DNA of 64,000 bases from Allobosea thiooxidans (GTDB taxonomy: Bacteria > Pseudomonadota > Alphaproteobacteria > Rhizobiales > Beijerinckiaceae). How positions within the stretch are numbered: the first letter of the stretch is position 1; each line of letters begins with the position of its first letter. Where the stretch lies: contig NZ_FUYX01000001.1 in assembly GCF_900168195.1 (NCBI RefSeq), positions 434,001 to 498,000 on the forward strand, given 5' to 3'. The position numbers and the translations under genes were made by a program. Under the pieces are notes generated by a model, which saw only the letters and a list, made by a program, of their open reading frames with translations, was not told where the DNA came from and made no database searches. Of the stretch, positions 2,966 to 59,904 are shown one piece after another.

Positions 2966-2970
2966 CCTTC

Positions 2971-3109
2971 CCTTCTCCCCTCGGGGGAGAAGGTGGCAGT
3001 GCGTAGCGCCGACGGATGAGGGAAGGGCCGCGCAAGCGGCCCTTTTTCGTTCACCTGATCGCGCCACCCTCATCCGCCCGCCGGCACCTTCTCCCCCGAG
3101 GGGAGAAGG
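2971..3109. repeat. composite palindromic repeat (paired CCTTCTCCCC hairpins)
   Basis: Two perfect hairpins, CCTTCTCCCC/GGGGAGAAGG at 2971-2993 and again at 3087-3109, flank an inner pair GATGAGGG (about 3016) and CCCTCATC (about 3067). The whole block is one large imperfect palindrome between the convergent genes leuD and the DUF1501 gene. It resembles dispersed BIME-like elements common in rhizobial chromosomes. It surrounds a rho-independent terminator. Confidence 0.85.
3024..3047 (+). terminator. rho-independent terminator after leuD
   Basis: AGGGCCGC (3024-3031) and GCGGCCCT (3036-3043) form an 8-bp GC stem with a GCAA tetraloop, followed at once by a run of T. This is the natural end of the leu transcript and lies in the middle of the palindromic repeat. 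Confidence 0.85.
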
Positions 3110-3112
3110 GCG

Positions 3113-35752: not shown

Positions 35753-35856
35753 GAGTGATATCCGGCGGCGGGCGCATGGTGATGGCCGTGCGCCCGCTGC
35801 ATGGTCAAGGAAAAAGGCTGGCCCGTGGCAGCCTGTCTCAGAGAGCAAACTCCAAG

Positions 35857-35974
35857 CCCTCATCCTGAGGCGCCGCGCAGCGGCGTCTCGAAGGATGCTC
35901 CAGATCGCTGCTGAGCCTCCTGAAATATCCTTCGAGACGCCATTCCCGAAGGAATGCCTCCTCAGGATGAGGGC
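35857..35974. repeat. dispersed palindromic repeat, CTCATCCTGAGG family, copy 1
   Basis: CCCTCATCCTGAGG (from 35858) is mirrored by CCTCAGGATGAGGG (about 35959-35973). Inner arms GCGTCTCGAAGGATGCTCC and ATATCCTTCGAGACGCC also pair. Closely related copies lie at 59799-59904 and, within the uvrC coding sequence, at 41610-41720. It lies between lgt and the oxidoreductase gene. Confidence 0.92.
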
Positions 35975-35993
35975 TCAGGTTTGGATCGGGCGC

Positions 35994-40105: not shown

Positions 40106-42229
40106 ATGAAGCCCATGAATCGCGAACGTCAGGACGATCTGCCTCAGGACGAGTTCGAGGACGAGGAGGACACCCTCCCCGCCGAGCCGGCGCTCGACCT
40201 CGGCGAGGCTGCGCCCGGCGCGCTCAAGGCCGGCATCGAGGTCATCCAGCAATTCGCCAGGCACCTGCCGAACAAGCCCGGCGTCTACCGGATGTTCGAC
40301 CGTGCCGGCGAGGTGCTCTATGTCGGCAAGGCCAAGAGCCTGAAGAACCGCGTCACCGCCTATGCCCGCGGCATGGCGCACACCAACGCCGTCGCCCGCA
40401 TGATCGCCGAGACGGCGAATATGGAGTTCGTCACCACCGGCACCGAGACCGAGGCGCTGCTGCTCGAGTCGAACCTGATCAAGCAGCTCCGGCCGCGCTA
40501 CAACGTGCTGCTGCGCGACGACAAGTCGTTCCCCTATATCCTGCTGACCGGCGACCATGACGCCCCAGCGATCCTCAAGCATCGCGGCTCGCGCCATCGC
40601 AAGGGCGACTATTTCGGCCCCTTCGCCTCGGTCTGGGCGGTGAAGCGCACCATCGACGCGCTGCAGAAGGCCTTCCTGATCCGCACCTGCTCGGATTCCT
40701 TCTACGAGAACCGCACGCGCCCCTGCCTGCTCTTCCAGATCAAGCGCTGCGCCGGCCCCTGCACCGGCGAGATCTCCATCCCGGACTACCAGGCGCTGGC
40801 CGGCCAGGCGCGGGACTTCCTCTCCGGCCGCTCCTCTGCGGTGAAGCAGCTGCTTTCGGCGCGCATGCAGGCCGCCGCCGAAGAGCTCGAATTCGAGAAG
40901 GCCGCCCGCTACCGCGACCGCCTCGCCGCACTCTCCGCGGTGCAGGCCGGGCAGGACATCAACACGCAAGGGGTGGAGGAGGCCGACGTCTTCGCCATCG
41001 ACGAACAGGCCGGGCAGTTCTGCGTCGAGATCTTCTTCTTCCGCAATCACCAGAACTGGGGCAACCGCGCCCTCTTCCCGCGCGCCGACCGCTCGCTGAC
41101 CCCGGCCGAAGTGCTGGCCTCCGTCGTCGCCCAGTTCTACGACGACAAGCCCCCGCCGCGGCTCGTGCTGCTCTCGCACCCGGTCGAGGAGATCGAGCTG
41201 ATCGGCCAGGCGCTGTCGGCGCGAGCCGGCCGCAAGGTCGAGGTCGCCCATCCCAAGCGCGGCGAGCGCGCCGACCTGATGGCCCATGCGGTCAAGAACG
41301 CCCGCGAGGCGCTCTCCCGCAAGCTCGCCGACAATGCCGGGCAGAGCGCTCTGCTCGCCGCGCTCGGCGCCGCCTTCGGCATGGAGACCGCGCCGCGCCG
41401 CGTCGAGGTCTATGACAACTCCCACATCATGGGCACGAACGCCGTCGGCGGCATGATCGTCGCCGGGCCGGACGGCTTCGTGAAGAACCAGTACCGCACC
41501 TTCAACATCTCGACCGACACCATCGCCGGCGACGATTTCGGCATGATGCGAGAGGTGCTGACGCGCAGGTTCGCGCGGTTGGCGAAGGAGAGCGGCATTG
41601 CCCTCGGCTCTCATCCTGAGGAGGCCGCGGATGCGGCCGTCTCGAAGGATGCTCCAGAGAGCGACGGAGCCTCGACGATCATCCTTCAAGGCGCGCCTGA
41701 CGGTGTTCCCCAGGATGAGGGCGCGCAGAAGAAGCCCCGCAAGGCGCCGAAGCCGCGCCGGGACGAGGACGGCTTCCCCTCCCGCCCCGACCTCGTCATC
41801 GTCGACGGCGGCAAGGGCCAGTTCACCGCCGCGCTCAAGATTATGAAGGAGCTTGGTGCAGCCGACATCCCGCTCGTCGCCATCGCCAAGGGGGAGGATC
41901 GCAACGCCATGCGCGAGACCTTCCACATGGCCGGCCGCGAGCCCTTCAAGCTGCAGCCGCGCGACCCGGCGCTCTATTTCATCCAACGCCTGCGCGACGA
42001 GGCGCACCGTTTCGCCATCGGCACCCACCGCGCCAAGCGCAAGCGCGAGACGATGAAGAACCCGCTCGACGAGATCCCCGGCATCGGGCCCTCGCGCAAG
42101 CGGGCGCTGCTGTTGCATTTCGGCACAGTAAAGGCGATCCAGCGCGCCAAGCTCGACGATCTGATGCGCACGCCCGGCGTAAATGCGGCGACCGCCAAGG
42201 CCGTCCATGATTTCTTTCACGATGCCTGA
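40106..42229 (+). CDS. uvrC: excinuclease ABC subunit C, with an in-frame repeat insertion
   Basis: UvrC makes the dual incisions in nucleotide excision repair with UvrA/UvrB. The 707 residues include an acidic N-terminus, the GIY-YIG nuclease ([21 protein letters not shown]), a UVR segment around residue 265, the RNase-H-like second nuclease ([17 protein letters not shown] and [12 protein letters not shown]) and a C-terminal HhH pair ([18 protein letters not shown]). Residues 502-538 ([20 protein letters not shown] onward) are encoded by a dispersed palindromic repeat at 41610-41720, 37 codons, in frame, between the two halves of the RNase-H-like domain. Such a stretch is absent from typical UvrC proteins. 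Confidence 0.97.
41610..41720. repeat. dispersed palindromic repeat, CTCATCCTGAGG family, inside uvrC
   Basis: CTCATCCTGAGGAGG (from 41610), GTCTCGAAGGATGCTCCAGAG, ATCATCCTTCAAGG and CCCAGGATGAGG (to 41720) match, in the same order, the intergenic copies at 35857 and 59799. The inserted length is 111 bases, exactly 37 codons, with no stop in the uvrC frame. The right half is more diverged than the left. Confidence 0.92.
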
Positions 42230-59776: not shown

Positions 59777-59798
59777 GAAGCCAGCCTTGTCCCTCCCA

Positions 59799-59904
59799 GC
59801 CCTCATCCTGAGGAGCCGCGAAGCGGCGTCTCGAAGGATGCTCCAGCGCTCTCTGGAACATCCTTCGAGACGCGGGCTCACGCCCGCTCCTCAGGATGAG
59901 GGCT
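59799..59904. repeat. dispersed palindromic repeat, CTCATCCTGAGG family, copy 3
   Basis: GCCCTCATCCTGAGGAGCC (from 59799), GCGTCTCGAAGGATGCTCC and the inverse arms ACATCCTTCGAGACGC and GCTCCTCAGGATGAGGGC form a near-perfect palindrome. This is the most symmetrical of the three copies in the window. It separates prs from queC and its ATG-like GGATGAG lies 27 bases before the queC start. Confidence 0.93.

Follow-up and report, generated by a model that had tools for sequence, protein, structure and literature searches.

Can a palindromic repeat that is scattered through a bacterial genome become part of a DNA repair protein, and what happens to it there? The question is raised by uvrC, which encodes the 707-aa excinuclease ABC subunit C (positions 40106..42229, plus strand) in the window, the whole 64-kb stretch of DNA analysed here. 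Its open reading frame carries the Pfam domains GIY-YIG, UVR, UvrC_RNaseH, UvrC_RNaseH_dom and HhH. A first-pass annotation had noticed that a block inside this gene resembles two palindromes elsewhere in the window and had proposed that a dispersed repeat lies there in frame. A DNA profile of this element, termed class A, was built from 28 dispersed copies of the window's own genome (G000; 5.37 Mb, 34 contigs), with the uvrC copy excluded and the copy at 59798 included. In the 64-kb window the profile finds three places with nhmmer, followed by a next best match of E=1.1, and these bear out the likeness. Two lie outside uvrC, at 35855..35975 (E=4.6e-30) and at 59798..59904 (E=8.9e-28), the latter directly upstream of a gene that by eye resembles queC. 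The third, at 41607..41722 on the plus strand of uvrC (E=1.6e-20), covers profile positions 2-118/119. This near full-length copy of ~116-118 bp is an inverted pair of hairpin units, runs in frame and introduces no stop. The dispersed palindrome, whose layout is that of a REP doublet (REPIN), is translated as residues 501-539 of the window's UvrC. The block had been placed at residues 502-538 and said to add exactly 111 bases; the in-frame copy stands and its extent does not, and with no clean empty loop in any congener the exact gain cannot be shown either.

The insert is contained in the UvrC RNase H endonuclease domain (PF08459, residues 423-638; 41372..42019, plus strand; Pfam hmmscan). 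Within that domain it occupies a variable loop, residues 499-554 (41600..41767, plus strand), in which different Bosea species carry different repeats, as seen in 60 congener loops. Counted between its anchors, the loop has 98 residues in the window's UvrC. All of residues 499-554 fall at pLDDT<50 in an AlphaFold2 model computed from a 30-sequence alignment. The prediction is thus of a disordered loop, insert included, in a model that is modest as a whole (pTM 0.46).

Class A is a ~117-bp double-hairpin palindrome with its units inverted, AGCCCTCATCCTGAGGAG-(variable tip)-TCTCGAAGGATG ... CATCCTTCGAGA-(variable tip)-CTCCTCAGGATGAGGGCT. The inverted doublet is seen in an alignment of 22 copies, and the profile matches both strands. 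At least 40 places in G000 carry the element (40 of 127 candidates were scored), together with 77 exact half-units whose tips are variable and, in those listed, self-complementary. Half-units occur in 12 of 199 genomes of the order, G000 included, and five of these 12 belong to one other genus (g36). The site upstream of the queC-like gene holds class A in two of 30 loci, namely the window's own and L306, and lacks it in the other 28. Four loci (L300, L302, L309 and L321) show other palindromic repeats at this site by eye, of the CGTC and CATCCCGG types.

A REPIN is an inverted REP doublet moved by a RAYT transposase. Class A is like a REPIN in having two inverted hairpin units, many dispersed copies of short palindromic units, variable tips and no visible target duplication. 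Direct repeats of 3 bp or more flank none of 25 intact copies (0.4 expected), and 2-bp direct repeats flank four of them (2.4 expected). The element differs in that the RAYT-type transposase (Y1_Tnp, PF01797) has no match in G000, in a search that was positive in five of 14 control genomes, and it is therefore filed only as having the REPIN layout. Class A thus shows no target-site duplication of the kind left by a MITE that a DDE transposase moves. Nor does it have the layout of a CGTC REP, whose tag stands beside an 8-9 bp stem starting with AT, since in class A the CGTC is internal and the consensus stem is CATCC/GGATG. The layout and the lack of duplication fit a putative REPIN-like movement via single strands, for which no enzyme was found in G000.

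A uvrC match was obtained in 98 of the 101 genomes searched, and in 60 of the 61 genomes of the genus with the window's own counted. Identifiable inserts are present in 49 of the 60 Bosea loops and fall into seven classes: A in 21, B in 10, F in six, G and H in four each, C in three and E in one, with none in the remaining 11. An eighth class, D, sits behind a left-part A (profile positions 1-65) in four of the 21 A loops. Classes were assigned by profile or BLAST, at E cut-offs of 0.01 for A, 1e-4 for B-G and 0.05 for H (best per locus <=7e-6); of the 21 A assignments, those of L041 (E=0.003) and L045 (E=0.0015) are weak. A peptide query made from the class A block matches 46 of 61 congeners and leaves 15 without a match. 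The alignment of relatives' UvrC, named beforehand as a check, thus finds the block absent or different in many close relatives. The original interpretation is supported and too narrow: class A is one of at least seven insert classes in the loop. Its presence in 21 of 60 congeners makes the insertion an old one rather than a recent event in the window's genome.

The reading frame is open in 56 of the 60 loops. Two are frame-broken (L078 and L089) and two are cut by contig ends (L081 and L086), and these four were read as DNA. The two breaks, in L089 (G028, on a 5.9-Mb contig) and L078 (G031), fall inside the repeat-bearing loop and are either real or homopolymer errors. No clean empty allele was found among the 60 Bosea loops: the 11 without an identified insert still span 62-90 residues between anchors, and three of them (L043, L044 and L046) resemble decayed A by eye. 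Outside the genus, none of 79 loops holds a class B-H insert by BLAST or profile, with one B-type record titled only 'Rhizobiales bacterium' (L108) set aside. A homologous block in distant relatives would have counted against an insertion; a single marginal class A match appears among these 79 loops (L096, E=0.006). This loop comes from another family of the order (G062), has residues like HPREAPSTVSKDE and is possibly a decayed class A copy outside Bosea.

Chance resemblance or faulty assembly might in principle yield such a block. The gene is indeed split between contigs in three assemblies: G038 (C26, C5), G034 (C255, C77) and G004 (C36, C94). In G038 and G034 the split falls at the repeat loop, as expected for high-copy hairpins. 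For chance no support was found. Both readings are refuted by the strength of the profile match and by the recurrence of class A in the loop of 21 of 60 assemblies, some of them of 1-3 contigs, so that their probability is negligible.

The other insert classes also have relatives beyond uvrC. Class B occurs outside the gene in four of six genomes searched (G009, G010, G024 and G032), and in the other two (G020 and G041) the sole matches to the B query are the uvrC copy itself. Class D has a 133-bp copy, 80% identical, outside uvrC (L207). Class E, the class of the G019 loop (L084), has a dispersed copy in the window at 2966..3110 (blastn, 82% over 57 bp and 83% over 53 bp). Classes C and G match outside uvrC at the level of arms only. 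The GC-rich hairpin ends of B, C, D and G are related, so that these classes may be subfamilies of one superfamily. A class-B-like palindrome stands at one and the same place, directly upstream of a gene that by eye resembles 3-hydroxyacyl-CoA dehydrogenase, in three species (L283, L289 and L290).

Class H is a CGTC REP, with the CGTC tag, an AT-starting stem, a CCA tail and head-to-head dimers. In uvrC it matches as a dimer in L072 and L073 and as a single 26-bp unit in L069 and L071. Outside uvrC it is found in the intergenic locus L309 and in another gene; dimers of the form CGTCATTGCGAG...CAATCCAG are present at L309 and in a glycosyltransferase linker. No class H copy was found in the 64-kb window.

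Class F corresponds to the T-arm and acceptor 3′ strand of tRNA-Met(CAT). The L070 copy matches the tRNA genes compared (L181-L188) at 28/28 bases, and the uvrC loops of six species (L070, L080, L062, L064, L063 and L056) show 24-28 matches over 27-28 positions to it. In G042 the tRNA gene and uvrC are the only carriers of the sequence (25-mer, <=3 mismatches). The tRNA gene lies ~103-117 kb from uvrC in G000, G001, G013, G042 and G050, ~1.0 Mb away in G014 and 0.47 Mb away in G016, and on a separate contig in G005. The uvrC of G000 has A, not F, and that of G016 is counted as having none. The 3′ ends of tRNA genes are usual attachment sites of integrases, and class F could therefore be an attachment-site scar. 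The L075 loop (VAGSNPARATK) was considered as a second tRNA 3′ end and rejected; its only match in its genome (<=3 mismatches) is the uvrC site, and it is therefore counted among the loops without an insert.

Further in-frame copies were found when the genome was searched for repeats in coding frames. The fetched loci of G000 hold 41 distinct A copies, 18 of them within a long stop-free frame, and 20 of the 22 long stop-free frames around these copies were scanned with Pfam. A long open frame around another A or B copy was not accepted as evidence of coding, since most such frames are GC-rich and unsupported. L007 and L009 were likewise dropped as internal coding copies, the domain being wholly on one side, and a CobG-like frame in G036 (L254) was not counted, its block preceding the first domain. 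Only two internal coding A copies are supported in G000. L003 (G000:C13:178697-178814) is an in-frame copy in a 2-oxoacid dehydrogenase E2, where it separates the E3-binding domain from the catalytic one. L217 lies in a glycosyltransferase, is followed by Glyco_tran_28_C and aligns on both sides with congeners. In other Bosea genomes, class A is found in frame between GHMP_N and GHMP_C of IspE (G031), at the C-terminus of PhnJ (G002), and after GHMP_N in a frame of G009 with no GHMP_C downstream. A 438-aa open frame in G034 is a candidate of the same sort. As for class-B-like copies, one separates the two main domains of a hydantoinase A in G004, and another precedes a FemAB-like domain in G003.

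The glycosyltransferase (own-genome gene G000:C14:252194-253453) has a match in 57 of 61 genomes, in some to the repeat block only. Read by eye in 30 loci (L322-L351), its linker contains whole or partial A in seven, H in six, another GC-rich palindrome in two, and is short in 12 and unparsed in three. The short alleles have 13-15 residues. The uvrC pattern recurs here in a second gene, this time with short alleles.

How the inserts are distributed among Bosea species bears on how they arrived. On a tree of the upstream part of uvrC (~1.33 kb, 60 loci), the classes need at least 28 changes, against 31-39 (mean 35.4) in 200 label shuffles, which indicates a degree of inheritance alongside considerable change. 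The tree built from uvrC downstream of the loop (58 loci) needs 27 changes. Three loci with ~97% identity upstream, L051 (A), L055 (B) and L080 (F), carry three different inserts; in this set the 100-bp windows flanking the loop are 91-100% identical while the whole loop differs. Many independent class A insertions had been read from 15 changes on the tree. This reading was dropped once the class A copies themselves were placed on a tree, with 15 of the 21 uvrC alleles (the rest being too short or decayed) and 59 copies outside uvrC, some of them coding elsewhere. Although support in this tree is low, 13 of the 15 uvrC alleles group together (88/94 support), with L036 and L051 elsewhere, and the scatter of class A therefore does not mean many A insertions. 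Class A in uvrC probably goes back to one old arrival, perhaps with one or two more, and its scatter would then stem from loss, replacement or recombination.

These same observations could be accounted for if inserts originated few times and whole loops moved between Bosea species by homologous recombination via the conserved flanks. Such exchange agrees with the change counts on both trees, with the clustering of uvrC A alleles apart from the copies outside the gene, with near-identical flanks around differing loops, and with a short sequence that several B loops share just outside the repeat (by eye). Even so, the unlike donor types number at least five (A; the B/C/D/G group; E; F; H), and each still needs an insertion of its own. 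Same-class loops of distant species, moreover, often differ outside the repeat by eye, and no donor allele for L051, L054, L055 or L080 was noticed informally among the 60 loops. Exchange from few origins is thus a serious contender that falls somewhat short of being probable.

Once in the gene, the class A insert evolves unlike its surroundings. By the Nei-Gojobori method, over all pairs of 12 equal-length class A alleles from 12 species, dN/dS reaches 0.67 in the insert, against 0.26 in the linker next to it, 0.12 immediately ahead of the insert and 0.06 over 1299 bases upstream. Predicted class A hairpins are also weaker in uvrC (mean -66.1, -96.8 to -44.2, n=15) than outside it (mean -86.7, n=59; Mann-Whitney p=8.6e-6), and the window's uvrC copy has a predicted fold of -68.2 kcal/mol. 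The A peptide is therefore one that the protein tolerates but does not conserve, and in coding copies the palindrome for the most part decays. The right half had been thought to have drifted to keep the frame. Drift is present, but in both halves, and near-neutral drift in an open frame explains the data.

The insert might instead have been recruited for a role in the protein, selected for altering UvrC activity or for supplying a longer linker that is needed. Loops with an insert are longer in Bosea (median 98, n=45 complete) than loops without one (69, n=11) or those of other genera (60, n=79), and many REPs lie in repair genes, for which altered activity is speculated in the passages of PMC3733652 drawn on here. 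The near-neutral change in the A insert argues against such recruitment, as do the unlike loop peptides of close relatives, the apparent in-frame deletions of L044 and L046 (by eye) and the like behaviour of the glycosyltransferase linker. Functional recruitment is accordingly very improbable.

The most convincing account, which we hold to be very probable, is that repeats multiply genome-wide while a tolerant UvrC loop gains, decays and swaps in-frame inserts much as intergenic DNA does. Short structured repeats would multiply in the genome and land at many sites, and those landing in a conserved part of a gene would be lost by selection. The UvrC loop would accept nearly every insert that is free of stops and a multiple of three in length, and would for that reason behave like intergenic DNA. 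Inserts would enter, decay by substitution and in-frame deletion, and be replaced, each replacement being either a fresh insertion at the site or an exchange with another allele by recombination. The earlier proposal that a tolerated loop received a dispersed palindrome, which now supplies protein sequence, agrees with the loops of relatives and with the other in-frame copies.

A bolder suggestion is that the UvrC loop and the glycosyltransferase linker are coding landing pads, with contents that change faster than the gene around them diverges, and are served by one capture process that acts on folded single strands, instead of by separate transposases. All recognised donors are hairpin-forming (REP doublets, GC-rich palindromes, and the tRNA T-arm with its acceptor strand; folding was computed for A and read by eye for the other classes), which would point to a shared process. 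The restriction to hairpins may be a detection bias, because donors that are not repeated could not be recognised, and a single capture process seems rather unlikely.

Insertions of this general kind are already known, as in-frame palindromes in Rickettsia, one of them in uvrC, and as intragenic REPs. Rickettsia palindromic elements (RPE-1 to RPE-7) are described in the relevant passages of PMC3767692 as palindromes of ~100-150 bp, in frame in protein genes and in exposed regions; RPE fusions are also reviewed, as far as the sections considered here go, in PMC10969869. In Table 1 of PMC3767692, excinuclease ABC subunit C appears as a carrier of RPE-6 in three spotted-fever species and of RPE-4 in R. 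felis. According to the same passages, 18 genes, uvrC included, carry RPE-4, -6 or -7, with RPE groups that vary by species; for the shared sites the authors lean to one common origin, hotspots being 'still not negligible'. The Bosea copies in uvrC, the glycosyltransferase, E2 and IspE are in-frame coding insertions like the RPEs, and uvrC is a common host, compared at the level of the gene. Bosea, by contrast, is free-living and has a larger genome, and its one UvrC loop holds no fewer than seven classes of insert, among them a tRNA 3′ end and a compound insert. Class H is linked to RPE-4/-6 only through the CGTC definition given in part of PMC3733652.

That source, in the parts consulted, reports REP monomers and dimers inside genes, many for DNA repair, with CGTC REPs predominating in alphaproteobacteria. 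Intragenic dimers encode 20-30 residues and clusters 43-82 (PMC3733652, same parts). Xanthomonas recB carries different REPs at about the same site, while other genes of this category have them at different sites (PMC3733652, same parts). Measured against the intragenic CGTC/GTAG REPs described there, class H shares the tag, stem start and tail, whereas class A is without the CGTC layout. Bosea uvrC differs from the cases in these parts of PMC3733652 in collecting many unlike classes at one site across a genus. No published report of this UvrC loop was found in the open-access papers searched, most subscription papers lying outside the scope of the search. The novelty lies in a single coding loop of a free-living genus that accepts many unlike repeats and turns them over fast.

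These observations bear on the question raised in Rickettsia, whether different palindromes at a coding site are separate arrivals or one diverged insert. Each of classes A, B, D, E, F and H has matching sequences elsewhere in the genus, which speaks for separate origins, and the Bosea evidence thus favours separate arrivals of the loop inserts, unlike the lean of the Rickettsia authors. In Bosea, which is free-living, the uptake of mobile repeats into proteins can be traced through a single loop whose inserts include well-kept, decayed, compound and replaced ones. Beyond the confirmed element and its frame, the stronger result is that a single disordered coding loop takes in and exchanges many hairpin-forming repeats genus-wide. 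Different species carry different repeats there, so that junk-like DNA repeatedly becomes protein sequence in UvrC.
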